This document shows, piece by piece, positions 1 to 48,600 of a DNA stretch of 64,000 nucleotides. Positions within the stretch are counted from its first letter, which is position 1. Every line of letters begins with the position of its first letter. The notes below the pieces were generated by a model. That model worked only from the letters and a program-made list of their open reading frames with translations. It did not search any database and was not told where the DNA came from. The translations under genes were made by a program, and so were the position numbers. Source of the DNA: Tribonema minus (Eukaryota > Sar > Xanthophyceae > Tribonematales > Tribonemataceae); NCBI GenBank assembly GCA_017506865.1, contig JAFCMP010000001.1:1674001-1738000 (forward strand), given 5' to 3'.

Positions 1-3000
1 AGCTTGATGTGGCCGTTCTCATGGATGAGCACTGCAGCATGGCAAGTTGAGGTTGTGAACTCCGATGTCGCACAGAGCGCTCATGGCATGACATTTGATC
101 AACTGACACTGAATCATGACTACTGCATTCTGCAGTGGCGCAAGCCTTGTGGGTGAGGCGGCCTGCAGTTCAAGTTGAAGTATTTGGAAGTATTGCACAT
201 TCGCATCATGCAGTGTGCACGCCAAGGCGCAGCGATCGACTACTTCAAATAGTGCCTGTACTCCTGGGCGTAACTGAGCGATTCGGAAGCAAATAATGGC
301 TTTGATATGTATCATAATGTATGTGGACATCAACCGCGAGCAACTACTTTAGTTAGTGCCGGTGCTCTGCGGCATCACCTGGCGATCCAGAAGCAAATTG
401 GCCATGCTATGAATGCTGATGTCATCAGCAAATTGGCTACGCTATGAAGTGTTGACATACATGACGTACCGTTTCCGGCTTTGATGTCGCGGTGTATGAT
501 GTGGTTGTCGTGGAGGTACTTGAGGCCCAGCAATACCTGAAGCGCACAGGAGATAAGGGAGAGTCACAGCGTTAAAGGAGAAGTCTGGCGATTGTGGAGG
601 CACTCGAGGCACAGCAGCAACTGATGGAAATACAGGGAGAGCCGCAGGTTTGAACTTCTTGAAACGCGTTGCATCGTGAATGAATGTGATGTCGCAGTGT
701 GATGTGGCTGTCGTGGAGGAACTCGAGGCCCAGCAGCACCTAGGGGGAGGCAGGGAGAGTCACAGCGTCCAATGATAAGTCTGGCGAGTGGACGTACTCA
801 AGGCCCAGCAGCCGCTGACGGAAACGCAGGGAGAGTCACATGGTTGAAAATTGTAGTACTTTGCACCGCGAATAAATGCAGTGTCGATGTAAATGTGGTG
901 GTTGTCTTTGAGGTACTTGAGGCCCAGCAATACCTGGGGCGCATGGGAGGAAGGGAGAGTCTTGGTGTTGTAGTTCCAGTTTGCCCTTCTCGCCCGCTCT
1001 GATGATGATGCGATTGCCGTAGAGGTACTGTGGGCCCCCCGCGGCGAGTCAAGCTACTGCACTTGAAAATGTAGCACACGTTGAAGGTGTACTTGTCGCT
1101 CAACGCCGTCCGGCAGGGGCGTGCGCTACCTCATGCGGCCAGATTGAGCGCCAAAGTGCGGTACCGCTACAGTAGGGTGCGCAGTGCGGTGCAGTACTTC
1201 AGCACCAGAGCCTGCTGTAGTCTGCAGCATGGTTTTCTGATCGAGTGAGACCGGTGCCGCACTTCAGATATGATGTCGCTCTTCGTAAATTCGCGTGAGT
1301 TGCATGCCTGCTGCGCGTAGTCCCTGGCAACGCTCTCGTGCAATGGGCCAACGTCGTCCAACAAGTCGCGCAGCCCAAATTAGGTTCTACAGCAAGCACA
1401 CACCTGCCGTGCGTAGTCCCTGGCGACGCTCTCGCGCAGCGGGTTAAATTTGAAGTTTGTTGTTGAAGTGTTTTTGGCGCATGTACATACCTGCCGTGCG
1501 TAGTCCCTGGCGACGCTCTCGCGCAGCGGGCCAAAGTCGTCCAGAAGATCGCGCAAACTGCCGCCCGGCACCCACTCGCAGAATATGTACAACATGTTGC
1601 TGCGGCGGTGGCGGCGGCGGCGGCGGCGCAGGCACCGAAACAGGGGTACCAATGAGCCATGCGAGAAAATCGGAAAGCTGTGATGTGCATGCTAAGGCGT
1701 TGCCACACAGAGTGTGGCAAGGCGCCGAGGGCCACTGCTACGCTTGCTTCGCGTGCCGCACGCCACCCTGTCTCTGGCCCTGTATCTCTTTGATTCTACT
1801 CGTTGTCTTCAAACAAGTGCTCCTTGCCCTAATCGTGACTCGGAGCTAGCCTCAGGGTGCACGCGGCGACAGGCGCGCGCACCGTGCACACCACCACAAC
1901 TGCATTCTAAGCCGTCAGTGGCCGCGCGCTGCGGTGGCTGACTGCGTGGCGCTGCTCAGTCACATCGCAGCGCTTGCGCCGATGCCAGCAAGCACAGACT
2001 GGTGGTGCCACGAGCAGACTGCCACTTTGCGGGCTGGCGCTGAGGCGGCGAGCCGCGAAACAGTTCTGCGCGGTGGTGAGCCTTGCGCGCAGCAGGGCTG
2101 CTGAGCACTGAGCACGTCACAGCACTCCGCCAGTCCGCCGCAGCGCCAGGGCGGCGCGGCCCCCTTCCGCCGGCGCTTCGAATAATGCCCCGAGATCTGT
2201 CAGGCAGTTGCATGTTCCTTGTCGTCACAAGGAGAAGCGGAGCGACTGCTGCTGCAACGCACAGCGTGGTCGTGCATGCCGGCAACAGCGCGAAGCCAGC
2301 TTAACACACGTGCTATGCTGCCACGAGTGAGACATCCATGAGTCACGCAGTGATGCTGCCGTCTCGCGCGCTCTTCAGCAGGCACGCGACTGGCCTAAGC
2401 TTCCACAATGCTCAGCTCGCTCAGCTCGCTGCGCGCAGCCCTGCGGCGCTTGCTGCAAGCGCACAACGCTGCGCCGTGAGTAGTATCAAACGTCATACTC
2501 TCAAATATGTGCATGCTTATTCAGGGTTGTCGTCCATCGTCAGGGACAGTGCGACGCACAGGTGGTGACGTGGCGCGCGCGAGCAAACCCTGTGCATACA
2601 TACATACCTATTCGGGTTGTAGTCGACGCCCAGGTACTGCACGACGTGCGGGTGGTGCTTGGCGCACGCGAGCAAACTGTGTGCATACATACGCTACGTT
2701 ATGATACGTACCCCCATACATGCATGCTCTCCGGGGCCATCGTCGATTGTCAGGGACTGGGCGACGTGCGGGTGGTGCTTGGCGCACGTGAGCGAACCCA
2801 GTACATACATACGCTACGCTATGATACATACCTGTCGGGTGGTAGCCGACGCTCAGGCACGGCACGACGTGCATGACACACGTCTGTACACACATACATA
2901 AGCACAGATATATACATACATACATACCTATCCGGGTTGTAGTCGACGCCCAGGTACTGCACGACGTGCGGGTGGTGCATGGCGCGCAGCAGGTTCACCT

Positions 3001-5797
3001 CCTGCTCCACGTTCGTCAGCTCTTTGCTGGCGGCGTTGTCGCCCTGAGGGTAATGAGCACGGGGGGGGTTGGGGGGGGGGGGGGGGCAAGTAAGTAAGGT
3101 GGCCACCGCAAGCAGCAGACACGGAGAAAGAGGGGGCGTATGTGCCAGCTTCTGGAGGCAGATGACGACGGCCCGTCGGCTTGTAACAGCGCGGAAAGCA
3201 AATGCGCACCCAAAGCTCAACTTTAACCCCACGCTTGACTCAGGGCCCAAACTTAAACCCTATGACCCCCTTACGTGCTGAGACCCTCACGTATGCTGCT
3301 GGTGTATCGGCTTCTGGCATGCGGCGTGTTGCAACACTTGTGCTCTTTAGTAAGGGGGAGTGTGCTGCACATCATCTGCTGTACGATCCTGGCATGACTG
3401 CCTTGGCAAGATGACAGAGTTGTTGAGGTCAAAGTTCAAGAGATTCAGGGGCAAACCTCAACTCGCTGTGCCATGGCCCTCCTCACCTGTAGCAGTTTTG
3501 CTGCCAACGGAAGCGCCTTCACGGCCACCAGCTGCGCGCACATCGAGACCAGCATCAGCAGGAGCACGTGTGAGCACGGTGTTGCTGATGCCTCCAGTGG
3601 AGAACAAGGGCACGGGCATACCAGAGATCAATCAACTGGTGTCTTCGCCGCCAAGCGTCTAAGCGCGTCCTGTGTGCACAAGACGCCAGTTTGTGGATTT
3701 CCAGCCCACTGCGACAAAAAGGCACAGGCAACGACAGCAACAGCAGCGGAGCATCATCTTGTTTTCTGCCTATTGAGCACATACCAAATCACACGACCAG
3801 GTGATGCCCGCCTACTTTTTTCACCACCCACTTCGGACGCATAGTTGTCCACCGATTCTCACCAGATCTTTTCAACCACAATCTTGAACCACCTTTTCAT
3901 TCATGTATGCTACACATTGAGAGTGAAGCTACCTTTGATCTCCTCGTTTACACAGATGTTGCAACCCGAACCCTAGGGCTGAGGTGGTCAGATGCGCAGC
4001 ACCGACAGACCAGTCTCGGTGTGCCTGGATGCTGAGCGTTGTGATTGTGTTGCACCATCACCGTCTCCACCATCCAAGAAGCGACGCCGACAGTTTTAAA
4101 AAAAGGTACTTCAAGTACCAAATATATATATGTCCGCCAAAGTACGATGCATGCGTGTGCGTGCCCCCAGCTGCTGCTGGGGCCCAGCAGCTGCGTGGGT
4201 GTGGCCTTGCACCCCCCTGACCACAATCCACAGTGTGACGCTACCACAGCAGTCGGTGACTGCTGACAAGGGGTGACGCTGACAAGGGGCAGTTGAGGTT
4301 TGACATGGCACGAGGTAGGCAAGATATGGCAGTTTGACGAACAGAAGAACCGTCGCGTGAAGCGGGCGTGGGCACGGACCCGCTGGAGCGGCGCACAGTG
4401 CTCAACAGTTTCCGGCTTCCCGATGCACCACATTAGAGCCACTGACCTGGCCGGTCTCCCTTGTGGACTGTGCCGTACAATATCTGGCATCCTACTTCAT
4501 ACATCATATCAGAGCCACTGACCTGGCCGGTCTGGACTGTGCCGTACAACATCTGGCATCCTAATGCACCATATTAGAGCCACTGACCTGACCGGTCTCC
4601 TCGTTGAGACCCTTGTGAACTGTGCCGTAGGAGCCGCTGCCGATCTTCGGTCCTAACCGCCATTTGCCCTGCGCAGACAGCACAGCAGCACACGGTGCAT
4701 GTGAAGGCTTGTTTCTTGCAGTCTGATGGTGTGCAGGCTCTGTAGAGTCCACAAGCCTAACCCTAACCCTCACCCTCACCCAAACCCTAGGTTGTGCCAG
4801 CGCTACGGCGTCACACGCAGGTCCTGTTGTGCCCTAACGTGGTGTGCCCTGACCCCAAGGCTGCTCACACTAATCGCCCTATGCTTGAGTTTAAGGCCAA
4901 AATCAAGGACAGGTTAGGTTTCAGCCCTAGCCCTAATGGCGGCCCATCATCACCGCTCGCCAGTGCCCACGCCAACGGGCCCTCGGCCCCTATACAGAGG
5001 GGGCGTGAGCTGCGGCCACAGGCGCGTCCGCATGCTCAGCCCTCAGGCACGTTCCCTAAAACCTCGAGTGCCGCTCCCCACGCATGCTCAGCGCTCATCA
5101 CGCACGCTCCGTCGCACCTGTAGAGCACTAGTGGCAGCGCTCAAGCGCGCTCACCCTGACCTCAGGCAGCAGCGCTCAGGGGACGCGCCACTGCGCACGC
5201 GCCGCGCGCAGCACTCCCAGGCTGCTTGTGCACAACGCCTCCGACTGTGTGCGTGTGCACTGTACGACATTGCCAGCAGCAGCAACGGCGTCCCGCTGCC
5301 CCCGCGTAGCTCACCCCTAACCCTACCCCCCCCCCCCCCCAGTACCAGTTTCAATCCTGGCAAGTTATGACTTGCCATTCTCTGTGACGCACGCGTCTGA
5401 GCGATGGCACAGCCGACGCGCTGCACCGCAACGCCGCTGCCGCGCCTCACCTTCTGCACGTGCCGCAGCGTGCGCAGGTCAAACAGGCCGTACTCCTCCG
5501 CGCCGACGCGCCGCCGCTGCATATATATACTTCGAAGTATATATATATACAGACTTCAAGTAGGTATACATGTACTTCTATGTATGCTTTATATGTGTAT
5601 GCGTCACCGCGGCGGCGCCGCGCGCGGCGGCGGCCCTCTCACCTTCTGCACGTGCCGCAGCGTGCGCAGGTCAAACAGGTCGTACTCCTCCGCGCCAACG
5701 CCGCCGCTGCCCTGGCGGCTCATGGGTGGCCGCAGGCCCCCAGCGGGCGAGCCGACGCCGCTGCGGTGCACCGTGTTGCCGCGCGGCGACGTGGGCC

Positions 5798-5844
<47 letters not shown>

Positions 5845-8223
5845 GAGGCGGTGGCGGCGGCGGAGGCGGAGAGAGGCGGCGCAGGTCAGCGGCGGCGGCC
5901 GCGGCAGTGGCGGCGTGTCCGCAAGTTAGATGTGAATTGATGCTCGCAGCTGTTCGATGGTCGGCGTCGGGGGAGACTGCTGCAGATCAGAGGCGCACTC
6001 GCACAGTCACAGTTGAAGTTCAGTTGTTGAAGTACTGTGCGGCCGTGCCGGCCAGGCGACGCTCGTCCAGGAGTGGGATGCGGCGGCGGTGCGCATCAGT
6101 GCCTGCCGCAGCGGTGCAGCGTCTCTGCGCATTTGGTGTGCCCTACCTCGAGGGCATCGAAGCGTTGCTGCTGCTCTGAGCAAGGGAGACTTCACACGCA
6201 CGTGTTGAGAGCAGAAGTATGAGAGCTGAAGTGCAGCGCGCGGCACTGCAACCAGCAGCATCACGCGGTGAAGGCACGATGCGGCAACGCACGTCAAAAG
6301 GTACTGCTGCCTAGGGCTCTGTGATTTCCAACAAGGACCCTAACCCTGACCCTACCCCAAACTCACAGGCATCATGGCAGTTGCCGCAAAGTCCGCTCGC
6401 AGAATCCACGGATCACATTCGTGCGACCTGCACATGACCTTCTTTGCTTGCTCAGCATCGCAAGAGACGGCCACCTCTGGCGAGCAATGCAGGCGGATCG
6501 CCTGCTAAACCTTGAGGGCGTCATATCCCAACAGGTCCGAAGGCCGGCCCTAATCCTAACCCTAACCCTACCCTCAAACTTAACCTTAAAACTAACCCTT
6601 ACCCAGGCCCAGGACATGCATGCACCTCCTGCTGTGCGCGCCCTGACGCCAAACGCATGACACTTGTTCTATCTCAGACCTTACCCAAACCCTAACGCCT
6701 GCTGTAACCCTGGCGGAACGACCATGAACGTCACGCCGCGCCCCCGCGCACACACACACGGCACTCGCCCCCTTTAGCCCCCCCTGCACACGCGGGGACA
6801 CCCGCGACAAACGCCTTGCGCCGCATGGTGGCGCAACTGCGTGTGACTGCGCACGCGTGCCTGTCGCTGCACCCCCACCCGGCAATCACTGTTCCCCCCC
6901 GCCAAAACGCACATCTTCCACCCCATGCACAAGACACGCCTGCGGTGAGTGCGTGCGTGCGTGCGCATTCCTAGCGTGTGTACGCGAGCGTGTGCGCGGT
7001 GTGCATCCGTGTGTGCGCCCACCTGTCGCCGGACCGCAGACCGCCGATCACCGTGCCCCCCCGTTGAAATTCGCCTGTACCAACCCATGCACGACACGCG
7101 CGCGGGCAGTGCGCGCGTGCGTGCGCGTTCGTAACGCGTGTGCGCTTATGCGCGCTGTGCATCCGTGTGTGCGCCCAGCCCACCTGTCGCCGGACCCCAG
7201 CCCGCCGATCACCGTGACGCGCCCGCCCGCGCTCGCGCGCATCTTCGGCGACCGCAGCTTGCCGCTGTTGCGCTGCTGCGACGCGCGCAGGTGCTGCGCG
7301 CCGCCGCCGCCGCCTGCTGCCAACCCCGCCGCGGATGCGCGCGGCGAGCCCGCGCCGTCGCCGCCGCCGCCGCGCTGCTGCTGCGTGTCGCCCGCGCCGC
7401 GCGGCGTGATGACGCTCTGCGCGCGTGGCATTGGGGGGGGGGGGGGGGGACCAGGGGGGCGGGGGAGAAGGGGGGGGGGGGGGGGGGGGCACAGGGATGA
7501 GCTCAAGCCCGGGCAGTGTGGCGCACAGGGGGGGGGGGGGGCGCGCAGGGATGAGCTCAAGCCCCGGCAGTGAGTGTTATCGCCGCTTTGCGCTCGGCAG
7601 CGCAAGGCACGCGGGTGCCGCGCTGCCGCTGCGTGCGTCGTGCAGTGCGGCTCAGCATCTGTGGACGTGTTTCGCAGGCCCGGCATCAGGCCGCGTGGGC
7701 CGCCCTGGCATGCGGCATGCGAAGCGCGCAGACGCAGGGCAGGGGTTGTTTGGACCTTTAGAGCGGGAGTGGAGCGCCGTGTGCACACGATTACAAGCGC
7801 GTGCACTTTTCGAACCAATCCGGCCCGCACCGCAGCCTTCCCGAACTTTGTTTCGCTTTGGACCAACTGGACAAGTGAGGAAGCATGGCAGTCAAGATGA
7901 AGTTGAACTTGTCTGCAGAATGAAGTTGAGCCCTACCACTTGGATCAGGTGCACCACCCGCGAAGCGGCCGCTCGCCAGGCCTAGGGTCATGTTCATCAC
8001 CCAGAGCCAGGGAAAGACCTACAGGAAGTGCTTGACTCAACGCCCAGAGCCAGGGAAAGACCTACACGGCTACGTTCAACACCCAGAGCCAGGGCAAAAC
8101 TTGCAGCTAGGGCCAAGTAGAGCTGAGACATGCGCACCTGACTGCACGCGTCCTCGCCGTCACGTATCAGCTCCGCCAGGCTTGGCCCACGTGATAGCGG
8201 CCGCGGGCTCGCCGGCTCGACAG

Positions 8224-8280
<57 letters not shown>

Positions 8281-11200
8281 TGCCGCCGCCGTTGGTGCCG
8301 ATTGTGCGCTTGCTTTGGATCATGCTGCTGCGCTGGTTGCGCACAGTTTCCGCCTCCTGCGCGTCGTACTCGTCGCCGGCGAACCGGTACAGGAAGCTGC
8401 CGTTCTTGAAGGTGTGCCGCAGCTGCGCGCGTGGCGGCGGCGGGGCGGCGGGGCAGAGCAGCGCACAACGGCAATGGCGGAGGTCAGCGAATGACCGTTT
8501 TTGTAGTTACCCTGAAAGCTGGTCAGCAGATGAACCTGACTCTACATACCCTTAATGATAATATAATAATGATAAGACCACTCCTGCGCGTCGTACTCAT
8601 CGCCGGCGAACCGGCACAGGAAGTTGCCGTTCATGAAGGTGTGCCGCAGCTGCACGGCGGCGGCGGCGGAGCGGGGCGGCGACAGAGCAACGGCGGCGGC
8701 AGCGGCGGTCAGCGAACAATTTACTTTTGTGTCCTTAAAACCGGTCAGCAGGTAACCCTGACTCAAGCTCTAGCAATGATGATAATAACAACACTGCGCG
8801 CCGTACTCGTCGCTCGCGAAACGGTACAGGAAGTTGCCGTTCTTGACGGTGTGCCGCAGCTGCGCGCGCGGCGGCGGCGGGGCGGCTGCAGCGGCGGCGG
8901 CGCAGGTGGCGGCGGCAGCGTGCGACGGCAATGGCGTCGGTCAGCAAGCGACCCTTTTTGTACCCCTAAGGCCGGTCAGCAGATAACCATGAGTCTAGCT
9001 CTAATGGTAATATAACGCCTAACATACCCCGGCCCTATTGCTCAGATACCCCAGCCCTATTTTGGTGAGCTTAGGCTTGCCCAGGGGCTCGCTGAGCATC
9101 GTGCCGCGGCTGCTCGGCAGCGGCGGCGGCGCAGCCGGGCGCGGGCGAGGAAGCACGTGCGACGGCGGCGGTCGACCGTTGCAGCAGCAGAAGGTAGAAG
9201 CTTAGCCCAAGAACCGTACGCCGCCAGCTGTCTTGACTCTTCTTTCAGCCTCGCCTGTGCAGCGTGCTTGCCACTCGTATAGTGCCAGTACGGACCGTGC
9301 TTGCTTGTAAAGATGCGCGGCGACGAAGTGACCTTAACCCTTACCCCCACCAAAAAAAAATACCCACATACGCCACTCTGACTCCAGCCCTGGCACTGGC
9401 CCCGCGCCCCCCCCCTGATGGCGACAATCAGAGTCTGTAACTACGCCTGGTTCATGTAGGCACGCGCACATAATTCTTACCGCCCCCACCTTTCCGAAGG
9501 CGCGAGGCCGCGGCGGCGGCGCTCACACAGCAGCAGTGCTCCGCTGCAGCGCTGCTCAATGACAACCAGCTGTAACTGCTGCGCCGCAGTGCGTGCGCCC
9601 CCCAACGGCGGCTGCGCCCCCCCTGCTAACTGTTACTCACCCCTGACCGGGCGCAGCGCGGCGCCGCCCCTAGTGGCGATGCGCGCGGGACGGGGGGGGG
9701 GGGCAGCCGGGCTTTGCAGGCACAACAATGCGGCGCCGGCGCAGCACGGCCAGACTTCAACGTTAGCGCTATGAAATTTTGGTAGATGTGCCCCGGGAGC
9801 TTCGCATTTGGGCCCTGGGCGCGAAGGCGGATACTGCCATCGGTCGCCCAGAACTCTGACTGGTTCTCAGAGGCGCGCCGCGGCAGAGCGCTTGGCTGCA
9901 CGGCGGCAGCGCTCAGTCGACTGGCAAGCATACTGCAACATGCATACACACCCCTGTACTTCATCAGCGCTGAGCGGTCGCCGAGGGCGCGCTTTCACGC
10001 ATGCGAGTCGTGGCTGCAGTGCTCAGCGCCCCGCCTCGTGCGTCGCTTTCTCCGCCGCTCCGATGCCGGTGCAATGGACCTGGCGCGTTTGTAGGTGTGC
10101 TGGCTGCTGCTGCTGCTGCTGCCGCTGCCGGTAGCTCGTGCTGTGGCATCGCTCAGCAGCCGGGTGAGTTGCTGCAGATCGCAGGAGCGTCGCCGCCCAA
10201 CCCTAACCCTACTTGCACCGCGACTGTATCAATCCCAACATCCCGTTCCAGCCCTTACCCTGTGCCCCTGACGCGGCTCGCCACGACGCGATGGAAAAGC
10301 CCCTTCTTGCACATCGAGTTCCCCTACAGTGTTGGCAAAGATGTCCTACAGCTCTGACACACGCAAACTCAAGATTTAAAGTTTGAATGCAGGGGTGCGT
10401 CACACTCACCATGACGTGGTGGAAGAATCCCCCTCGAGCATCATGTTCTCCTGCAGTGCTGGCAACAACACTCTACAGCGCTGACACACGCGAGCGCAAG
10501 AGTTGAAGTTTGACAGCAGGAGCGCGTGCGTCACTCACCATGACGTGACGAATTTACTCCTCCTTGAGCATCGAGTTCCCCTACAGTGTTGGCAGATATG
10601 CTCTACAGCACCGACGCACACGAGTGCAAGAGTTGAAGTTTGACTGCAGGAGCGTCACACTCACCATGACGTGGTGGAAGAATCCCTCCTTCAGCATCAT
10701 GTTCCCCACAATTACCGCCTCTAGCTCGTCCCGGCAGTGCCTGCTAGACACCATCCATCGCACCGCCTCCGACCCCACGAAGCACTGGGCACGCGCGTGT
10801 TAAATAACGGGAGACAAATGAGCAATGCCACGTTAGAAAAGTACATGGGGTATGTAGGTCAGGTGATGTCAGTGCTCGACACCATCCATCGCACCGCCTC
10901 CAACCCCACAAAGCACTGGGCGCACGCGCGAATCACAGGAGAAAAGTAAGAAAATTTAGGCGAGAATTGAGAAACACCATGTTTGACGATTACACGGGCA
11001 TGTAGGTTAGTGGACGTCAGTGCTCGGCACCATCTACCGCACAGCCTCCAACCCCATGAAGCACTGGGCATGCGTGTGCATCACGGGAGGAAAATGAGCA
11101 AAGCAACATCGTGTTAGGCAATTACATGGGTGTGGAGGGTAGCTGTTGGCGCTGTGCGCTTGTCCGCCAGCCGCAGCACGCTCATGTCAGCTCACCCTAC

Positions 11201-11560
11201 GGGCAACTACCCCCCCCCCCCCTCCCCCCTCTCCTGTGCGCGCACGCTCCGGCCCTGTTCACAGCGCCAAGTAGCACTAGGAAGCGGCGTGCAGCGAAAT
11301 GGTGTGCAGCAGCAGCGGCAGCGGCAGCGGCAGCAGCAGCGGCAGCAGCGGCAGCGGCGCGCGCGCACCTTCTTGTGCTTGGTGATGCGCGGCCGCCGGT
11401 CGCAGATAGTCACGTTCGCGCGCATGTCCTCCGCCAGCGCGCGCAGCTGGTCGTGCGTCATGTAGTGGTCCAGCGGCACCGCCGCCGCCGCCATGCCGCC
11501 GCCGCCGCTGCCGTCGGCGTACGCGCTGCCGCCGCTGTCGTCCAGCGCGCCGCTACAGCC

Positions 11561-33670: not shown

Positions 33671-36600
33671 TCAATCAAGGCGCTGAAGCAACTCGCGCAT
33701 GACCGCTGCGGCCGCCGCCCTGGCGGCATGAGCGTCTCTATGCCAGGTCCGTACAAGTCATTTCAAAGCGGTAAGGCATGCATGGCCGCATGCGCACATG
33801 CGGTGCCGTGCCGGATGCGCTGAGCACTGCCATCAACTGCGACTGGCGACCAAGCGCCGATCGCTGGGTTATGAACGACATGCGCCAAGCAATGCAAGCA
33901 TCGAGCTCTTTGAAAAAGCGCGCCGCACCTGTCTGCGTCCAGGCTGCAGCAGGATGCGCGTCTCCGCTGCGGCACTGCCACCAATGGCACAAAATGCGAC
34001 AGTGTTCAAGCGACAGTTGCTGACTCTTGGAACCCAAACAAGTACTTCTATTTCCAGTTTTGTACACTAGAAAGCTTTGATAGTGCGCCATACCTGTCTG
34101 CGTCCAGGCGCTGCAGCAGGATGCGCGTCTCCGCTGCGGCCGCAGCAGCGCGCGCCTCGGCATCCGCCTTCGCTGTGCGCAGCGCAGCTTCGGCTGCCGC
34201 CTGTGTCGACGAGAGCAGTGAGAGCCGCAGCAAGTGTTGACCGGTCAACGACGCGTGAGGCCCAGTGTGGATCATTTTTTTTCCCTTTTCTGCCGCGCGT
34301 GTTACAACATGGACCCTCTGGTATACCAATGCCAGCCCGTATGCAGTCGGTGCCATGAGTCCTCAAAGCTGTGACATTCATCTGCGACTGCTTTTTAAAG
34401 TGGACGAAGAACTGAACAAAAAAAGTCCTGTGCGCTTGCGGACAAAGATGTTGTGTGTGTACTCTTGCTGCAAAGCTGCAGCAGTGTGCAAGAACTGGCA
34501 TTGCGGGGGAAGGCCGGCAGTACATGTGATGCAAATCAAATGTGCAGGGCCACGAGACAGCGCCGTGCACAACCACGTGGTGTTTTGCGCAGGGCAGCGA
34601 CGCGTCGCCTCAGCGTGCTGCGCGCAATTGCACGTCAACTTCATGTACGGCAGTTAAAACAGTGCGCGGTTCGCACCTGCTCTGCGGAGCGCCGCCTGTC
34701 GAGCTCTTCCAGCCTCTGTTGCAGCCCCGCCTTGTCCTGCGGAGCGCAGGATTAGGGTTAGGGTTAGGGTTAACCCTAAGACCTGACCACGCGCAGCGTC
34801 AGGTCAGCAATGCAAGTCCATTGGAAGGCAACAGCCATTGAAGTTCACAAGCAGCGCACACCACTGGCGCAGCGGGTTGCAGGTGTTGGAGCAGGATTTC
34901 TGACGAATCGACCCAGAGCATGGCTCGACAAACTTCACCCACAGCCCAAGCAGGGGCTCCTTGGCACGCGCTATCAGTGTGAGCAACCTCCACTATATGC
35001 AGCTTATTCGTGTGGGCAAAAACACTTCGAAGTACCAGGAAGGTGCATGCTGTTACCACCAGCTGAAGCGCAAGCAGTTGCCTGAGTTGCACCATTGCAC
35101 ATCATCACCAAATAGCATTACCTCCCGTGAGCGCCATCTAAGAGCCATGCTTCAACAATGCTGCAGAGCATGCTTGTTTGGTGTGCAATTGCTCGTTGAC
35201 CGGTGCCACGAAAAATATATTCTGCATCAAGTTATAAAAAAAATCGCAGCACGGTGCATCCCGGCATTTATGTCCAAATTACCTGAGTGGAGAATGATAT
35301 GAGACGTGCTGAATCAAGTGAAATCAGTGAAGGCAAATCTAACACAGATCTTTCGATAATACAATCTCAGCAAAAAGCAGTTAGAAAAAGTGAAAGAAAA
35401 AAGCTAGATAACCTTTAAAAAAATTAATTAGCATATCTGAGCAGCGTGCAGTATGTACCGCCACCAGCTGCAGCATGTGCGCTTCCGCAGCGTTAACACG
35501 CCACGCATCAGTATATCACAGTGCAGACAGCACTCAACAATCATTTCTGTTTCAAGTCTGCCATAGACCTCGAGCACATGCGACATGCATTCGTGAAGAC
35601 GGCGCCTTGCAATTGGCACCTTCACAAGTTGCCTTGCTGCAGCATCACTATACATACATCTTCATTTGAGGTAATTCAGAGTAAAGTGTAGTATCACATT
35701 CAGCATGCGCCGCTGAACTGATGAAGTGTGTACTTGTTGTTAATTTTCGCTCAGGGCGCGAAAAAGCCCAGATGAAAGGCATCTAACTTGAATCTTGCTG
35801 TACGGAATCTACATGTCGTGTGACGGTGTGAAAGTGTCTCAACGACAACCCCTCAAACGCCGCCGCCGCCAGATGGCATATCGGGATCCTCCCCTAAGTA
35901 CCTCCAGCATCGACGCACAAACGTGAACGGGAAACTCAACAAGGAATTTCGAAGGTTTAATTTTTCCTTTGCGTCGACAATAATGAGCAGCTTTTCTGTG
36001 GTGGATAAGGAAAATTCACACTACGAAATTTACCTCCATGAGCTGCTTTGCGTGCGTCTCGGCGGCTTTTGCGCGCCGCGAGAGGTCTGCGGCCTCGTTC
36101 ATACTCAAGTTGAAGTATCACTTTGCAATAATAACGGGCGCCCTTCAAAGCAGTTAATAAAACTATGACGGATTACCTCCATGAGCTGCTTCGTATGCAT
36201 CTCGGCGGCATCGGCGCGCCGCGCAAGGTCGGCAGCCGCAATCACAGCAACCAGCATTTGTCACTAATAGTGGGCATCTCAGAAAGAATGAATAAGGAAT
36301 TCTAAAGTTTGAGATGTACCTCCACGAGCTACTTTGCATCAGCAATAGTGAGCAGCCTTTCTTTGTGAAATACAAAATTTCAGGGTGAAATTTACCTCCG
36401 CAAGCTGCTTCGAATGCGCCTCAGCGGCATCGGCGCGCCGCACGAGGTCTGCAGCCTCGCGCTCCAGCGCCGCCTTAACCTGCGCCAGCTCCGCCTCCAC
36501 GTATCTGCGCGCGTGCGGCGGTGTTGCGCAGGTGTAGGTGTGATCGGGCACAGGGGTCGGCAGGTACAGGTTTGCTATTGTCGTTGGCGATACTGCATCA

Positions 36601-39600
36601 CACATGCATGTGATCTGCCCCAGCTTCGCCTGTGCATATCTGTGCTCGCAGTGGTGCATAGGAGGGGGTGTAGGCATTGTGTGCACGGGGGTATGCAGCT
36701 GCATGCTGGCGTGCGTCTGCGTGTAGAGCGGTACGCGGCTCCGGGGGGGGGGCACGCGCAGGCGTGCGCCAAACGCACCATTCGTATTGGGGAAATGTCC
36801 AAATTCAAACTGATATTCACACATTTGTAACGAACAAAAAGCACCGTTTGTGGAGAAAACTCGCAAGAACTGCAAGGAAGCCATCGCTGGGGCCGGTTCA
36901 TGCAGCTGATTGCTTTCATGCATTTACGTAGGCATTGCTGCCTACATGACTCCAACTGTGCGTATTGGCTGCTGAACTCCATTGCTTGTTTATCTCTCTG
37001 AACCAATACAGGTGTCGTCGGGAATGCCATGGCGTAGCTCTTACAGGAGAATTGCGGATATGCCTTTTGAGAGTAGTCTGGGTGGCGCATGGTGCGCACA
37101 CCTCTTAGACAGAAACAGTACTTGTCTGGGCTGCGCAGGCGACGACGACATTCACATCATCAATCTCACCCAAGACTTTTATTTTGTCCCATGTAGACCC
37201 CAAAATACCCCTCCTCCCCCCCTCCTCCTCACAAAACTGCACTGAAACAACTTGCAATTTCTGGCAGCGATGCGCTACTGACTGCACAGGCACATCGTCG
37301 AGCCACCAAGCAACATCAACAGGATTAATTTTCACAGAGGCGCAGCAACCAGGTTGGTAGGTATGTAAGTACCTCATGGCCTCGTCCTTGGCGGCGAGCT
37401 GCCCGCGCCAGCGCTCGTCTGCGGCAGTTACAGCCTCGGTAACCGCGGCGCTGACAGTGTCGGCGTCGGCGCGCGCGTAGGAGCGCAGCTGCGCGAACAC
37501 CTCGCGCAGCTGTTCCTCCATGCCGCCGAAGGCATCCACCTGAGTCGGCAAGAATGATGGTCAAGGGACGGTCGGTATGTCCTGAGTGTGTCTTTATGAA
37601 CAGTTGATCCCATGGCTAAAGAAGTTGCCATCTTAGATCGTAGAGTTGTGCGTAACTTCGAATCAGGGCTAGGGTAGCAAACACCTCGCGCAGCTGGCCT
37701 TCCATGCCGCCGAAGGCATCGACCTGAGTCGGCTCGGATGATGGTAAGGTGTAAATGGGTATGTACCGAGAGATGGGTGTACTTGAAGAAGTATATAAAG
37801 TATACCCCGGTACCTTTGTGCAAACGTGATAGTCTGGATATCTGACAGCCAATGCCTCATGACATCACGGAGGAAGAAGTGTGCCCAGATCTTGTGCGGT
37901 GGTGCGCGCCCTGGAAGTCCACGTGGGCATGCTCCCCTGCGCCTCAGCGCTCAGCCAACGGCATTACATACTTCTACCTGCTCTATGCATTCACATGCTG
38001 CTGCATACTCCGTGTGAAATGAAAACCAAGCAATCATGCAGGCGCCGAGGAACTCTACGCGCAGGAGTGTACAGATCCAAGCAGTGCCTTCAATTTAAAT
38101 TTCAGGACGGTTTCAGGAGCACAACTTACCCCTACAATCTAGGTTCAAAAATGACACTGCTGTACATCCGAGCAGTTGCGATCGTCACCCACCCCGTACC
38201 TGATCCTGCAGCTCCAGGCAGTCGCCCTTGGCCCTGTCCAGCGCGTTGGCCAGGGCATCCTGCTGTCTGCGCGCGTCCGCCAGCTCCGCCTGAGCGCAGC
38301 AGCGGCGGCGGCAGAGATCAGCGCCAGCATAAATATTAAGAACACCTCTCATAATCATATTTCAGTAATCATAACTGATGCCTGTATTTCTTGAGAAAGC
38401 AATAAACAAATTCACAGCTGCCCTGTCCTGCACATCTGCTGGGGCATCCTGCTGCCTGCGCGCGTCCGCTAGCTCCGCCTGAACAGCGGCAGAGATCAGT
38501 GGCAGCGTTGATATCAATGAACTCAAAACCTGATCTGGTATTGTTGAGTTTCCACAATCATAATTTATTCAAAGATTGAATACACAGCCGGCCCTGTCCA
38601 GCGCGACAAGCAGGGCGTCCTGCTGCCTGCGCGCGTCCGCTAGCTCCGCCTGAGCGCAGCTGCAGCAGCGGCTCCGGAGTTGGTATTGATTCACTTGCAT
38701 TTGAAAATATTGAGTTTCGACAAGGTCAAAGAATCAGTCTAGGAGTAATCATACACGGCCGGCCCGCGCCTGCCAGCTTGGCCTGAGGGTTAGGGTTAGG
38801 GTTAGGGTTGGCGGATGACAGCACGTCGGCGCCAACTCCGCCTGAGCGCAGCAGCGGCGGCGACAGAGATCAATACGACAATTTACTCCCAAGTACATTT
38901 ACAGTGAACGCATGCACTCTGAGGCACACACAAAGTTTGCATGCCTCAGAGTAAGGTTTGGGGAAGAAGTGCCACTTCTTGCACAAGAAGAACCACGTGC
39001 ATTTGGTGATGATTTTGTACGTGCAAATTGCACACTTCCCGCATATGAGTAACTCATAGTGCGCGTACAAAAATAAGATCTGGACGACTTCCTCTCATTG
39101 AAATTTTGTTGTGTGCTCTTCTAAGAAGAAACCACTTTTAAGGAGTACCTTTATGTTGTGATGCCATCAACTTCAAATATTGATCACCGTCCGCAAAAGC
39201 CTTTACACAGACACGTAAAACGCTGTAGAACGGCTTCACAGTATAATGTCGACCAGCAAGAGCATCACTTCTTGCACAAAGTCGTGTACACTTGGTCATG
39301 ATCCTGCAGCTATGTACAGAATCCGCAAAATTAGAAAATACACATTCTCCATCAGAACGCATAAATGCGCCTACCAAATTATGACCTGGACTACTCTTGA
39401 GTTACCAACAGACCTTTGTGTGCTGCGAGCCACCAATAAAAAAATCGTTTCAAACCCTGAGTTGATTTGTTGCCACCTGCGGTCATGACATTGTGATACA
39501 GCACGAGTTGTATTCGTGAAATTATAGTATCTACCTCCTACAGAGCTCACATTGTTCATACGCTGTTACAGTTTGGTTGCACTCCTAACCTTTCCTTGTG

Positions 39601-42600
39601 TGCTTCAACCAACCAAGTCACGAAATAAGTTTTGAAAATAAAACGAATTATTCAAAATCTATCCATAATCATTATAATAACAAAGTATACAGAAATGGCA
39701 GGCGCGTGTTAGCCAGCTATGCTTGAGCGCAGCGACAACGGCGGCAGCATACAGCACCGGCACCACTTGCCAATCAGCTACGCTATAATCATTGCTTGTG
39801 CATATTTGCAGCATGGAACGAGGCTGCACATGTTAAAAAGCGTGGATGAGCGCATTGTTCCCACAAAATGAATGCCCTACGGCTTGCAACTTCTTTTTCT
39901 GTTTTACTTGTTTACAAATGATGGCCTGTTATCATCGCGCAGAAAACGCAGTCATGGCATGCACCTGCCTGCGTTAAAAACAGTGCTGAAGAATATGATG
40001 CATGTACTTTTCAGTTGCTTTCAACAAGGCCTGTCGTCATCGCTCGCTAAGGAGTGGAGAACGTGATCACGGCGTGAATCTACATGTATGCCAGAAAACA
40101 GTGAACACAAATTTATGGCCTGTCCCATCCCATTTTCTTTACAGTGTGACTCCTGCATCTGAGGTGGCGGTGGTTCGTCAAATGCTGCTTGCTGCCCCGC
40201 ACAGGTTAGAGGGAAAAAATTGCCTCAATGTGATTGTGAACATCTGGTGTGGTTGAATTGTTTTCAGATGCAAAAACAAAATTGACGCAGATCCAACTCG
40301 GGAAGAAATGAGGCACACAAGTATGCGGGTCACCGCTCACCCGCGCTGCAGCCAAGGCTTCTTTCAGTTCGCGCGCCTGTGAGCAGCGGCGCCAATGGGA
40401 TTCACGAGAGGCGCAGGCAATCACATATTCAGATGGCGTGATCACAGGACACGTATGTGTGAGCTGCACGACAGCATAGAGGCACACCTCCAAAGGCACT
40501 TTCATCGTCATTCCAGAGTATCGTCCGGCATCTTACGGCGGAGTTTTTTTCCAATGCCCTCAACATTGCGGTAGACCACGGTCTCAGCCTCACTCAAAAC
40601 CTAAAACATAGGTTCTGACATGCACTTCTCGCCGCAGCAATGTGCCCTCCTTTCCCCCCTCCAAAGCAAACAAATGCCCCCCCCCGCCCCTCCCGCAAAT
40701 TCTGCTTGCATTGATCTCAACCCCTTCAGTAACGCCCCCCCACCTGAAGCGCGCCGTCTTCAATGACCTTGTCCTTGATGGCCAGGCCCGCTCTGGCCTC
40801 GTTGAGCGCTGACTGCGCCTCCAGCTCGCGCGCAACGATAATTTTGGCAGACCATCGTCTTGGCCTCACTTGAAAACACTGGCTCTGACCCCCCCCCCCA
40901 TACAACTCTGCTTGCGTTGATCTCAGCCCCTAGACAATGATAGAAACGAACCAAAAGATCGTAGACCTCTACAGTAGGTGACATGGAATGGCTAGCCACA
41001 AGTGCCTTCCACAAATTACCGTGGTCGCCGCTGCTGCAGTCATTGGCCACATTGGCCACAAATAATCTCAGCCCTTAGACAATAAATGCCCCCCCCAGCC
41101 CCTCCCTCCCAACTCTGCTTGCATCAATCTCAAACTCTACCAGAATGCCCCCCCACCTGAAGCGCGCCGTCTTCGATGACCTTGTCCTTGATGGCCAGGC
41201 CCGCTCTGGCCTCGCTGAGCGCTGCCTGCGCGTCGTCCAGCTCGCGCGCGACGCGCGCGGCGGCGTCGCGCTCTGCCACGACCGCGCGCGCCAGCTCCCG
41301 CGCCGCGTCGGTTTCCAGGCGCCGGCGCTGCGCCGCGGCCGCCTCCGTGCTCTTCATGTGAACATCCCATGAAATTTAATTATGAATAAATGGATAAATA
41401 CTGCACGTGCTTCGGTAGTATGTGACATGTGCTACTATTGTAGACGTCGATGCATCGCCTTTTACAGTGTGCAGCACGCAAAGTCAGCTCGCGCGTCGCG
41501 TTGGACTCGAGGCGTTGGCGCTGCGCCGCGGCCGCCTCCGTGCTCTGCGAGCAACCATGCATAGAGTTCAAATGCTTTTGAAAAGAGTGTGCTGTATGCT
41601 TCTGCGGCAGAAATTCATGATTGTTTAAAGCATGTTGGCTGCATTTTTTTCAAAAGAATGATCGTGTCTTGTAGGGTTCGAAGGATGCAGTTTACATATA
41701 CATCTGTTAGTTACATGTTGTGTGCCAAGATTGCACAAAGTCTGCTGCCGCGCCGCGTCGAACTCCAGGCGCCGCCGCTGTGCCGCATCTGCCTCCGTGC
41801 TCTGCATGTGAACTCACTGATAGATGAATAAATAGTGCATATACTTCGGGATATCGTGCTTTGGAAGTATGTGACATGTGCACCTACTCTATGCTTTCAT
41901 GAATTGCCCGTCACAAATGCAACACGCAAGAAATGGCAGCTCTCTTGAATGCTGCGCCGTGGCTGCCTCTGCGTTCCGCGAGCAGCCACTCATTATATTC
42001 ACATGCTTCCAAAGTTTGCGGGAAAAAAAAGAAAAAGGTAAGAATTCATGATGCCTCCTGGTACATAGTGGCCATAATATCAATGACACTCCTGCTTCGA
42101 GAAAGCAAAATAAAATTATATTAGCGTTAGTTTGACCCTAATCCTGAAATCTCCCTAACCCTTGCCGTGTGAAGGGCTCGTTCATCTGCATGGTGCGCAA
42201 TGCATGGGCGTGCACAGTAATAATCATGAAGCGCAATCGCGTGTCTGCGGTCGCGCATGCTCGCATACCCTTCCCACTTCCCATGCAAAGTGCACGGACA
42301 TGTGGGCCCAGGTGTACGCTGTGTGTGCAAGTAGCCACACTAACTAACGTGCACCGAAAAAGATCTCCATGGCTTGCGTCAAAGACCTCCACACCGCCGC
42401 AGGGGATGGTGTTGTGGAGTCTGTGAGTGCTGAGACGAGCGCCCGCAGCTGCTGCGTACCAGAGCACAGTGTCTCCCATCGCTTGTAGTCGCTGCGAGTG
42501 CCTGGTGTGCATTCTTGCTTAGGGCTTGACGAAGCCCTAACCCTAACCCTAACCCTAACCCTAACCCTAACCCTAACCCTACCCCGAACCCTAACCCTAA

Positions 42601-45600
42601 CCCTAAATCAGTACCAAGCTTGCTACAAAGGGGTCAAGGCGTAATGGCACAAGTGTTTGTGTCGATCACGACCCACGCAACGGGGGGGGCGGAGACGATG
42701 GACGCTGATTACAAAAGGGTCAAGCGCGATCGCAAACCTCTTTGAAGTGAGCGCAACCACTGCGCGCACATTGTTTGCAATTCGGTCTACCTACATGCCT
42801 TACATTTGCCCCTCGCCCTGATTTTTTTCTTCTTTGTGCTGCCTTGTGTTCCAACTTTTAAGAATACTACAGCTGACCAATTGCATATGTATTTCATTGA
42901 ATATCACTATCAACAAAAATATGTGAGCAGGATTTCTCAGATTTTAAAAGAATGTTCGATTTCACATCTGTAAAAAAAAGTGTTCTTTTGATTTTGAAAG
43001 AAAACCTTTATGGTTACAAAAATCTGCCGCTCGTAATTTTCAGCTATCGATGTGTGCTTAAGTTTACCTCTCTCAGACGCTCAGCCGCCTCCTCCGCCAA
43101 CGCCACCGCCTGCAACAGCTCGCGATCGAGGCGCGCGCGCTGCGCCGCCGGCCGATCATTACCCTCTTTGAAACGAGCCCACATCCATTGCGCGCACATT
43201 GTTTGCAATCCGGTGTACCCTGCCTGTTTAAATCCCCCAGGCCTGATTTGCACTTTTTGTGCTGCCACACGTACCAACTTTGAAAAATGTCAGGGAATTT
43301 TTAAACGTTTTTTTCTCATGCAAAGGCACATAACAAAAACAACAACAGCGAGAGCAGGATGTGAACCTGAATTTGTTTTTCTCATGCAAAGGCACATAAC
43401 AAAAGCAACAACAGCAAGAGCAGGATGTGAACCTGCAAACGCCGATTATGTTCATGGCCGCGCATACATACACACCTCTCTGAGCCGTTCCGCCGCCTCC
43501 TCCACCAGCGCCACCGCCTGCGACACCTCGCGCGCTGCGCCGCCGTTTCATCACGAACCTCTTTGACATGAGCGCACAACCGCTGTGCGCATACTGTTTG
43601 CAATCCGGTGCACCCTACCTTTCCAAACCACCTAGCCCTGATCAGCATTCTTTGTGCTGCCACACGTACCAACTCTAAATAATTTAGATTTTTTCAAAAA
43701 CAATGGCACATGCCAAAAATACAGGCGACAGCAGAATTTGAACCTGCAAACGCCGATTTTTTTCATAGCCACGCATACATACATACCTCTCTGAGCCGCT
43801 CCGCCGCCTCCTCCGCGAGCGCCACTGCCTGCGACACCTCGCGCTCGAGGCGCGCGCGCTGCGCCGCCGCGTCGTCGCGCTCGGCGCGCGCCGCCTGCAG
43901 CGCGGCCTGCTTCGACGCCGCCTGAGCGCGGACGCAGGTGGCGCGCTCAAGTCTGAGTCGAGGCTCGGGCTCATGTGGTGTGAAGCACGCCCGCTCAAGG
44001 CTTACTGGGCTTGATGCGCGGTGCGATGTAGAGCAGCCGTTGACGGCGGCACCGCGCAATAGCTGGTTGGAAGAGAAAAAATTGCCGAACGAAAATACAT
44101 TTGACGCCGCCTGAGCGCCAGGACGCAGGCGGTGCGCTCAGGACTCAGTGAGCGTAGTGCGCGGCGTATGTTGTTAAATCAGCGTACGCATTGGCGCAAG
44201 TAAAAATTAATGCGTCTTTTTGCTTTCAGTGGATCAGTCGTGTCGGTTATGGAATTGCTGGGCCAAGCATTTGTAGTCTTGCGAGGTTTGGTAGTTGTAC
44301 TTTGGAGCAGTCATTGACGGCGGCGCCGTGCCATGGCTGGCTCAAACCAATACAGAAACGAGTGACAAGCCTCAGCTGTCGCACTTCTGAGTCAGGGATT
44401 TTTGCAGCGGTGCGTGTCACGTGCGCCACGGCATCAACGCGCGCCGCCACCGCCGCCGACGCCACATTGTGTGCTCCCGCCACATGACCATTGATATATA
44501 AAATTAACCATCGTGCACACTTCAAAGCCGCTGCTTGTACTCGGCAAGACGTGGGGCTTGCCGCTCGCCGCGCTGCACCGCGGCTGCAGAGAACATCCCA
44601 GCCCCGCAGCTCAGAGCGGTGGCTGCAATTGTGTGAAAGCGGCGCTCTGCGCCTTCCCAGCCAATGCGCACGTCAGCAACACCTGCATTGCGCACTGCGC
44701 CGTGTTTTTTGGTACGTAGACAGGACGCCGCCAGTGCCTCTGCATTGTTGAGATCAAAACCTGCTGGCGAACAAGCAACCAGCAGCAACACAACGCCGGC
44801 TCACCAGCTCCGACATCTCCGCGGCAGCGCTCCGCGCCTCCTCTGCGCGCCGCTCGGCGTCCGCGCGCGCCGCCGCCGCCGCGCGCGCCGCCGCCCCTAC
44901 GCGCCGCAGCGCCTCCTGCAGCTCCGCGCAGCGCGCGCGCTCGCGTCGCAGCGCGTCCGCCGCCGCCGCGGCCTCTGCCTCCGCCGCTGTACGCGATCGC
45001 GTGAGCGCCTCCGCCGCTGCTGCCGTAGTAGCCTGTCGCAGGCGCGCACAGTGCCCGCGGGGTGAGCCGCGGTTTTTCACAGCGGATCTGCTACGGTAAC
45101 CTTGTGTCCGCCTGCGCATCAGTGTTTGCGCTGCACGGGCCATGCATTTCCATCTCCACCATTGCGACGCGTGCGATTCACATGACCAAACGCACATGCG
45201 AAGCAGCAATGCGGCCGCTTCCGCTGCGTTGTTGCACTGGAAAAATACGTGGCGCCGTGGACTCTGCAGCCGCTGACGATGGTCAAACATCATCGCAACC
45301 GAGTCACGCGTGCGCGCCCACCTGCAGCTCGTCGACCCGCCGCTGCAGCGCCGCTGCCTCGCGCCTCGCGTCAGACAGCTCCGCGTCAGCCGCGCGCCGC
45401 GCTGCCGCCGCCGCTGCAGCGCCGTCCTCGCGCGCCGCGCGCTCCTCCGCCAGCGCCGCTGCCGCCGCGCGCGCCGCCGCCGCAGCGGCCGCCACTTCGG
45501 CTTCTATCTCCGAGCGTTGCTGTGCCGCGTCGGAGGCAGCGGCGTCGGCGGCGGCGCGCTCCGCTGCCTTGGCGGCGGCTTCGGCGGCGCGCGCCTGCGC

Positions 45601-48600
45601 CGTTTGAAGCGCACAAGGAGGGTAGGCATGTATCAAAGAAATTATAAATGCTGCTTGAGGTGCGCAAGGTAGGCATGTGTTCACAGTTTTTTTTAGAAGT
45701 TGACGGCGGCGCGCGACCTGGCTTTGCCTCTGAGGTCACGCCAGGGCGTCAGGCAGCACAACCGGCAGCGGCGGCCGCATGCAAGATGCCACCAGCGGTG
45801 AGGCAGGTGCAAGCACGTACAGCACCCCTGCGCGTGCGGTGCGGCCGCCAGTACCTAACCGTAGCCCTAGTTGGTAGCCAACCCTGAATCTGATCTGCAG
45901 TGTCACCCTGCACCTCTCTGTTGGGATGCGCAATCATCGCATACGCGCTCGCTGCGGTGCACAAGAGTCGCTGACGACGCCAGCGCTGCGCTGCGCTACT
46001 TTTGGTGAATCGTTTCTGGCACAAGGCGCGGCACTTTCTAGATCTAAAAAAACATCCTCTATTGAAATACGCCGCCAGCAGCTTGCGACGCCTTACTGTG
46101 GCAGAGCAGTGTGGTTATAGCTGCTGCGCCGCCTGCCATCAGTGCTGAGCGCTGCGCGCTTCCTGGATGAGCACTGCGCGCGCGTGAGCGCTGCTGTCGA
46201 GGACGGCACCGCCGCTTACTGCATCCACAAGTACAGACCCGAACACACCAGAGCATGCCAGTGGGCACTGGACCTTGTAGCACCAACTACTACTAGTACG
46301 TTCATCACAGGGTCAAGGTAGGTATGCTGCATCTCACCTTCTCAACGTCTGCCTGCAGGGTGGCCACCTCCTTGCGTAGCTGCTCCACCATTGCCTGCGG
46401 GCACGGTCAGTGGTAATAGGACATGCAGCTGTGTGCTACGTGTGAGTTCTCGACCTGAGTGGCCTGCATCAATGCCAAGCTTGGCGAGTTCAGCAATGCT
46501 CAGCGGATGGCTGCTGCCGACAGGCACAGTCAATACGACTAGTGAGACTGAGCGATGCAACAGTGAGCTTCTCCCTGTCACCCTCGAGGCCATGAGTTGT
46601 CATGACAGCGGACTTCAGCACTGCAAGCAAGACCTTGAGTGCCGTGTATGATGTGCCAAGAAAAGCTGATGGAATCCTGGCACATTATCCACAACTTATT
46701 TTGAGACCAGTGATCACAACAGTGACAGTACATAGACAGTACAGCAACACTGCAAGGCTGCCCTCAGCTCAGCTCAGTGCTGCCGGCCCTTCGACGGCTA
46801 CCTACAAGAGCTTGTCGAGCCCACCAGAACCCGCACAGCTGCCCCCCCCCCCCCCCCCCCTTGACCCCAACCCCAGCAGCAACAAGCCCCACGCCTACAC
46901 GTCTGCGTCCAGCCCTACCCCCCTCTGCCCTTGCTTAGCGCTGGCTACACGCGAAGAACCTGCATGGAAACGAATCAAAAGATCGTAGAGCTCCAAGTGA
47001 CGAGGAGTGGTTAGCCGTCAAATTGAATGCCTCCCGCCAATACCCGCGGTCGCCGCTGCTGCGGAAATTGGCCACGAGTCAAACAGTGCCACTGCACTAC
47101 CTGCGCGGATACCTACATACCTGCGCCGCCAGCGCGTCCGCCACCGCCTGCTGCGCGCCCGACTCGCGGCCCGCCTCCGCCGCCGCCTGCCATGCGCGCG
47201 CCTCGCCCTGCGCCTCGCTGATCGCTGCCGTGAGTTCGCGCAGCTGCGCGTCCGCCGCCGCGTCTGCCGCCGCCGCCGCGGCCTGAAGCAGCGCAGGCGG
47301 GAAGCGTGAGGCCAGCTGCCCGGCATGCCAGTGCAGCCAGTAGGCATGCAGGGACCCTTGTTGCAGGCCAACACAGCGTGAGTGGGGGTTGTCCACGGGT
47401 CAGGGGAAGTTCAAGTTGAAGCTGGGAGCGCCGCCGCCGCGGCCGGAAGCAGCGCGTGCGGGAGGTGACATGACGTGATGCTGCGACGTAAAGAGCTGCT
47501 GCTCACTAGCCTGTTGCTCCACACCGGCAGAGGTAGACAGAGAATGACCGCGGGTCAGGGGGAAGGGCCAGCTTTGAGTTGAAGGTGGGGGCGCCGGGCG
47601 CCCCCGCTGACCGTCTGCCGTGTGTATGACCGTCACTATGACGGATACACCATGCTTTGCAGGCCTCACAAAACCGGCACTCGAGGGTGTGAGGATGATG
47701 AGCACTGCTGCGCATGTTGAGTGTACATCACTGCGGTGGCAGCCGTAATGGGAGGAAAAACGGCGTAAGCATATATAGAAGTATGTATGCTGAGCACTGA
47801 TGCGCACATCCTCCGGTCAGAGTGAGATTAACATCACCTGCTCATGCGGCGGTGGAGCAGATGCTCCATGTGCAACATCACAGCAGCTCCCCTACCCGCC
47901 CCCCCCCCCTCGATGTCAGACGCGGCACCTGGAGGAGCGTGCAGCAATGGCAGTCCCTCAAATGCACCCCGACCGCAATCACCACTTACACTACAGTACT
48001 TCGAGAGTACTACGGACATAACAACGACACCAGCGACATTTTAAATTGTAATACTTACACGGGCCTCGTCCAGCGCGCCCGCCAGCCGGTCCCGCTCCTC
48101 TGCTGAGCGCGCGACGGTTGCAGCAGCTGCCGTTACGACCTGCAGCAGTCAAGACGCGCGAGCGGCGTTCACGCGCGATACCTGCATGACATACTTTCTC
48201 TGTTTTTTTTCGCGCGTGCGCGCAAGTAGCATTGTCACATGTGCCCATGTCAGCGCACCCGGGGAATACCGCCAAGATACGCGTGATGTTGTCTTTGTGC
48301 AGCAGCCGCAGCGCTCCGCATGACATGACCGCGAGTGGCACGCAGACAGAGGCGTGCGCGTACCTGTGCCGCTGCCGCCGCGCCACGTCTGACACTCTGC
48401 GCGCAATCCGTGCGCACGTCAAAAGTGACACACTTCAGCTGCGTCGCACTGTTGTGGTGACACAGCAGTGATCAGACGTTGACTGCAATTGCACACAATG
48501 AGCAAGGCTGCGCATTTCGCGCGTGTCACAGCTTCAACGCCCTGAACTACAGAGCCCTAGCCCTCACCTCCAGCCCTTCCTCTAAATACAGACTCTATCT

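Follow-up and report, generated by a model that had tools for sequence, protein, structure and literature searches.

In a 64,000-nucleotide stretch of the Tribonema minus genome (contig JAFCMP010000001.1, positions 1,674,001 to 1,738,000; hereafter the window), exon edges are repeatedly copied, together with the splice site, into the adjoining introns. Such junction-crossing copies, which we call echoes, were found at 23 of the 56 modelled junctions of three minus-strand genes: a Der GTPase, a MAP3K-like kinase and a long coiled-coil/LRR gene. They are probably the product of neutral local tandem duplication, purged within exons and tolerated across junctions, by which introns lengthen at their edges. 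This was the simpler of the readings offered by an initial annotation of the window, namely duplication tolerated wherever the first donor or the last acceptor still works, and it fits the data best. The window was brought forward for its echo pattern, so the rates observed in it are not genome averages.

Spliced alignment to a profile of P0001-P0007 gave the Der gene 12 exons, and the kinase gene was modelled with 6; the 13 exons of the coiled-coil gene were derived from open reading frames (ORFs) and splice signals only. These models contain 28 introns (Der 11, kinase 5, coiled-coil gene 12). We scored an echo when a copy crossed a junction with a summed left and right score of at least 40, at least 8 on each side, and a partner within 1500 bp; the reversed sequence served as the null. 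Echoes were thus detected at 15 of 28 donors and 8 of 28 acceptors, whereas no donor or acceptor (0/28 each) reached 40 in reversed sequence. By gene, they occurred at 8/11 donors and 4/11 acceptors in Der, 4/5 and 1/5 in the kinase, and 3/12 and 3/12 in the coiled-coil gene. The donor of Der intron 11 is doubtful, its partner being 906 bp off with little of the exon matched. Exon interiors of the coiled-coil gene gave high scores in real and reversed sequence alike, and because of this low complexity they were not used as evidence.

Echoes numbered 1 to 4 per junction and lay at 65-907 bp; the initial annotation was right that the edges are repeated, but its upper figure of nine repeats was not reproduced. 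It had also placed donor copies always downstream and acceptor copies always upstream, and indeed no copies scoring at least 40 were found in the opposite directions (0/28 upstream of donors, 0/28 downstream of acceptors). Arrays at 8354-9173, 10277-11148, 14685-15708 and 33908-34140, outside the 28 introns, also lie over exon edges; together with the 23 junctions they make its estimate of about 25 exon edges a fair one. Its tallies of 8 of 10 kinase exons, 11 of 13 Der exons and 7 exons of the coiled-coil gene did not recur, the exon sets being different. The order it described, with the intact exon innermost, does hold, but it follows necessarily from tandem duplication with the exon body unmoved, and is therefore uninformative on mechanism.

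The two halves of an echo have diverged unequally. In the 39 of 52 echoes that aligned on both sides, the exon side had diverged by 12.4% and the intron side by 21.7%, a ratio of 1.75 (95% 1.41-2.22); the unpaired ratios were 1.62 for donors and 1.53 for acceptors. Divergence of this order (12-13% exon side, 20-22% intron side) makes assembly duplication unlikely, as had been proposed; with copies differing by about 3-30%, and by more substitutions on the intron side, the probability that the arrays are an assembly artefact is negligible. A free copy beside a constrained original should give a ratio of 2, or less if the original changes silently, while a copy itself under exon-like constraint would give a larger one. 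The observed ratio is compatible with 2: decay in the exon-like portion of an echo is roughly neutral, and no conservation of echo sequence beyond neutral decay was detected.

This bears on the suggestion that echoes are retained for the use of their splice sites, as decoys or as alternatives. Most echoes do keep their GT or AG (7 of 102 such bases differ), and at setting 18 the gene finder predicts 54-bp exons at two Der echoes, 25015-25068 and 25146-25199. However, GT is lost in 6 of 35 donor echoes, and the divergence of the exon-like halves is close to that expected of a copy drifting freely next to a constrained original. Identity was likewise raised near 76 control anchors inside introns, so that no selection on the splice dinucleotides was inferred in either direction. 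Given the roughly neutral decay, we regard a retained splicing role as unsupported and quite unlikely.

Exon interiors, on the other hand, are spared. Among kinase exons of the window and of 24 other loci, none of 316 positions had a copy scoring at least 32 in either direction, compared with 9-11% of 519 intron positions. Neutral tandem duplication would account for this as follows. Local direct duplications, with units mostly of 60-300 bp, are frequent in this genome; one falling inside an exon would alter the protein and be purged. After a duplication across a donor, the exon body would stay joined to the first copy, whose donor would work, leaving the extra copy to the intron; across an acceptor, the last copy would stay joined to the exon. 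The geometry of both steps is as observed, and their splicing outcome is what we would expect from it. Extra copies would then decay as neutral intron DNA, as the divergence ratios suggest, and introns would lengthen at their edges. Donor echoes may outnumber acceptor echoes (26/110 vs 14/110; P = 0.054, a borderline difference), possibly because splicing is more readily diverted to a decoy acceptor lying upstream.

We then looked for echoes elsewhere in the assembly (158 Mb, 554 contigs). The 24 kinase loci were picked by profile matches, not for repeats, with a best-match choice that favours long exons; four of them were picked as possible allelic pairs. Introns shorter than 60 bp were dropped from the profile models (one each in L032, L033 and L036). 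Locus L042, nearly a duplicate of L041, was excluded from the gene-finder echo counts, the coverage profile and the intron-birth, event and shift tests, but included in the exon-interior scan, the echo listing and the divergence, repeat-pair and profile-intron counts. The gene finder was trained on other loci, leaving out L032, L033, L036 and L042; checked on 31 window exons, two of them with uncertain starts, it placed 28 donors and 22 acceptors exactly (settings 18 and 21).

Echoes are present outside the window, but the feature is weaker there. In the 33 kinase-profile introns, 4 donors and 2 acceptors had echoes where interior positions predict 1.6 and 1.8, and the gene-finder introns of the other loci had 11 donors and 6 acceptors of 82 (setting 21), or 12 and 10 of 102 (setting 18). 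When arrays were compared with shifted positions, 15 of 40 arrays in 23 other loci crossed an exon edge vs 8.2-9.3 expected (settings 18 and 21, P 0.007-0.01; donors 10 vs 4.8-5.5, acceptors 8 vs 5.6-6.5), and 16 of 40 vs 10.7 at the loosest setting (P 0.02). Overall, the excess is 1.5-1.8-fold (15-16/40 vs 8.2-10.7, P 0.007-0.023). Event placement in the 82 introns gave 19 arrays: 6 across a donor, 2 across an acceptor, 1 across both and 10 intron-only, where donor 2.1, acceptor 2.4 and both 0.7 were expected. Coverage by downstream copies stayed level at 12-15% over an interval that starts 30 bp within the exon and extends 300 bp past the junction. Repeat pairs take up 27% of the window; for the 24 other loci the mean is 9.6% (range 0-49%).

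An older exon-anchored array stays recognizable for longer, because coding constraint holds one of its halves; we gauged this advantage by simulating duplications with frozen exon halves. Simulated junction arrays were found 1.01-1.52 times as often as others at a total score of 40, depending on age, 1.03-1.63 times at a score of 50 and 0.98-1.26 times by the intron half alone; with per-copy divergence ranging up to 0.25-0.5, the advantage by total score was 1.3-1.6-fold. Outside the window, most of the excess can be put down to this detection bias; within it, the excess cannot. Since the outside excess resembles this advantage, a genome-wide habit, the term used in the initial annotation, is unsupported at the intensity of the window.

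Within the window, arrays rather than positions were counted, the expectation being random placement of units of the same size. The 28 introns hold 24 arrays: 14 donor-only, 7 acceptor-only, 1 crossing both and 2 intron-only (the pair listing holds two further intron-only pairs, which clustering merged into junction arrays). Random placement predicts 2.5 at donors, 3.4 at acceptors and 0.3 at both, so that 22 of 24 arrays cross a junction where about 6 should, a more than threefold excess. With gene-finder edges, 23 of 33 window arrays cross an edge vs 10-11 from shifts (24 vs 15.4 at the loosest setting). Comparing junctions with the mean of intron interiors was dropped as the main test, both because interior copies often belong to junction-anchored arrays and because the search direction creates a gradient along the intron; the event counts that replaced it strengthened, rather than weakened, the case for a junction excess. 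By the comparison with expected frequency that the initial annotation had set as its own refuting check, junction-spanning duplications are in excess in the window; elsewhere the excess is near the detection bias for older copies.

Several observations weigh against tolerance as the whole explanation. Besides the more than threefold event excess, window donors with echoes number 15 vs 3.4 expected from interior positions, and coverage by copies around window donors peaks at 0.54 at the junction, falling to 0.17-0.25 at 100-300 bp. The simulated detection advantage is nil (1.01) for young copies, and many window arrays appear so young that intron-only arrays of equal age ought to be visible as well. 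Outside the window, the donor excess in profile introns (4 vs 1.6) has a P of 0.03, donors exceed shifts 1.5-2.1-fold among the 40 arrays (10 vs 4.8-6.6, P 0.003-0.10), and the flat coverage profile is partly confounded, since its interior positions may belong to junction-anchored arrays. The near-total junction crossing in three genes is thus not fully explained by neutral, tolerated duplication; either short introns in the ancestor or more frequent duplication of exon DNA would explain the window excess.

The same excess is what a junction-targeted process would produce, with breaks or replication slips concentrated at exon ends, mainly donors, in particular genes, for instance through transcription- or chromatin-linked breakage in exon DNA; arrays would then arise at exon ends rather than merely survive there. 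Consistent with this, intron-only arrays are similarly rare in the window (2, or 4 with the merged pairs, in 28 introns) and outside (10 in 82), but the density of junction arrays is much higher in the window, and a donor excess persists outside it. Targeting retains some probability because the window excess exceeds the detection bias. Yet the window was selected for the very pattern, the excess elsewhere is close to the bias expected for older copies, and no fixed breakpoint position is visible, exon-side extents ranging from about 40 to 100 bp (breakpoint motifs were not systematically searched). Overall, we consider targeting possible but rather unlikely.

The echo-bearing features, all on the minus strand, are as follows (full extents in brackets). 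Kinase exon 470-536 has an acceptor-side array at 482-961, with echoes 203 and 397 bp upstream of the acceptor (470-961); donor-side copies accompany exon 1491-1599 in 1303-1490 (1303-1599), exon 2928-3043, with three echoes in 2505-2927 (2505-3043), exon 4588-4668, with two in 4395-4587 (4395-4668), and exon 5643-5760, with one at 5420-5520 (5420-5760). Two predicted exons, present in the gene-finder model only, follow: 8138-8422, with an acceptor-side array at 8354-9173 (8138-9173), and 10665-10784, with arrays on both sides (10277-11148).

Echoes at Der exons are given here by their distance in bp from the donor (+) or acceptor (-). Exon 15670-15825 has a donor-side array at 14685-15708 (14685-15825). 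Donor echoes occur at exons 20478-20556 (+161, with GT changed to GC; 20249-20556), 21794-21898 (+135 and +360, besides an intron-only pair in 20950-21346; 20950-21898), 24283-24446 (+164, +319, +471 and +907; 23339-24446), 25277-25399 (+131 and +262; 24992-25399) and 27715-27896 (+167; 27451-27896), and acceptor echoes at exons 17036-17134 (-116 and -238; 17036-17525) and 22804-22917 (-108 and -216; 22804-23251). Both edges are copied at exons 19099-19242 (+101, +231, +332 and -224; 18688-19670) and 26302-26536 (+306, +517, -172 and -378; 25744-26974).

For the coiled-coil gene, exon 34094-34200 has a pair, 33908-33973 and 34075-34140, across its donor (33908-34200); the pair was not scored as spanning in the shift test, where the edge adjoins no predicted intron. 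Donor-side copies occur at exon 36396-36504 (35967-36504) and exon 43787-43921, the latter with an echo at +311 and a longer array (42727-43921). Exon 37373-37539 has an acceptor echo at -184 (37373-37770), exon 38200-38289 has three at -189, -360 and -552 (38200-38872), and exon 41157-41351 has echoes of both kinds, at +413 and -450 (40669-42008).

A different origin for the arrays would be the birth of introns themselves, by tandem duplication of an AG|GT-containing exon segment, of which the echoes would be fossils. In the model of intron gain by tandem genomic duplication (PMC3443670, PMC2891723), the new intron arises between two copies of an AGGT site; like the echoes, this model involves tandem duplication with splice-site sequence, but it predicts that the intron start resembles the next exon start and the intron end the previous exon end. 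That donor-acceptor similarity is absent here: a donor and acceptor of the same intron scored at least 10 in 1 of 60 introns and at least 12 in none of 60, no more than other pairs (0.6% and 0.3%), and intron birth was rejected on these 60 introns.

Intron differences were seen in the ORFs of relatives, which we assumed to be unspliced gene calls (P0122, an annotated protein, was not used). Aurora P0128, 95% identical to the searched domain, reads through the site of the 2046-base intron L019:5327-7372, within which one echo scores 40 and three score lower. In kinase P0121, window intron 1490-537, which bears echoes and which P0123, P0124, P0126 and P0127 appear to have, is missing. Both cases would suit intron birth. 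Conversely, kinase intron 32-469, absent in all three informative relatives (P0121, P0126 and P0127), has no junction echo. All told, intron birth is a very unlikely source of the arrays. The absence of introns 32-469 (minus strand) and L019:5327-7372 from relatives' ORFs hints at recent gain or loss. By protein similarity, the genome is probably that of an ochrophyte related to brown and yellow-green algae: an Aurora kinase from another locus is 78-80% identical to Ectocarpus, the window kinase matched Tribonema minus at 84% over 31% of the query, and the closest named relatives of the Der GTPase are from brown algae and Chrysoparadoxa (55-57% identity).

The copies have the character of local duplications: 62 of the 96 direct pairs in the window are 100-700 bp apart, and no inverted pairs between 50 bp and 6 kb apart were found there, so that orientation is direct and distance short. 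Only 7-42% of pairs, depending on identity class, extend over at least 0.9 of the period, and many have other sequence between them. Among adjacent pairs of at least 90% identity, 5 of 6 are separated by 3-7 unmatched bases and 1 overlaps by 5; the six come from four loci, three from one locus, and one filler resembles a GGC repeat. At L038:7424-9999, young nested tandem duplications with short fillers reach 98.7% identity over 1112 bp, and units of 325-335 bp occur as well. Because the youngest adjacent copies are often split by a few unmatched bases, the duplications may perhaps have arisen by end-joining after staggered breaks, though such cases are few and many of the older pairs do not adjoin.

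Haplotypes gave no dates for the duplications. A search of the genome for a further copy of window positions 20000-28000 found none. Of two candidate allelic pairs, L041 and L042 align over 5.2 kb at 92% identity, with 3 gaps and no duplication difference there; many substitutions with almost no indels are an odd mix for possible haplotypes. The other candidate pair aligns in patches only. Parallel kinase matches on contig pairs C90/C179 and C144/C223 suggest unmerged haplotypes, which could date duplications. Two introns were checked as candidate dispersed elements; besides themselves, they matched 1 and 2 further sites, respectively. A dispersed repeat of about 95 bp does occur at 24903-24997, 40941-41040 and 46964-47075 (within Der intron 3 and introns 8 and 3 of the coiled-coil gene) and in at least 37 other places in the genome, at 78-86% identity. 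Telomere-like interstitial CCCTAA/TTAGGG arrays lie at 4753-4789, 6548-6599, 22676-22718, 42535-42606 and 17035; three are inside modelled introns, and one short run begins at the Der donor 17035.

Vaughn and Bennetzen (2014) reportedly described a rice case of small tandem duplications arising from staggered-break repair, and Gao and Lynch (2009) are said to have found internal gene duplications, which may include exon-intron boundaries, to be frequent in eukaryotes. The echoes are likewise tandem, lie within genes and take in such boundaries; unlike internal gene duplications, they affect 23 of 56 junctions of three neighbouring genes, often as arrays, and bring no new intron. Small tandem duplications are, in the accessible part of PMC8355091, attributed to nearby opposite-strand nicks followed by end-joining, and are short insertions (<100 bp). 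The echoes resemble them in being direct and local; those of PMC8355091 are under 100 bp, and the part of that source available to us ties them to no splice junction. The link drawn here is our own suggestion from a few fillers. Among the literature matches listed, which left subscription papers mostly uncovered, there was no account of junction-anchored echo arrays as a genome feature.

Intron lengths vary enormously, and the process that lengthens introns is seldom visible. Each array described here combines a constrained original, the exon, with decaying copies, and so provides both a clock and a direction, from which the steps can be read directly. If targeting were true, introns would gain their length at the borders, from a boundary-linked mutational process and not from random duplication throughout the intron. 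A junction excess that held for young duplications across the genome would tie DNA duplication to exon boundaries. Even without it, the arrays reveal the part that purifying selection on exons plays in deciding which sites retain duplications.

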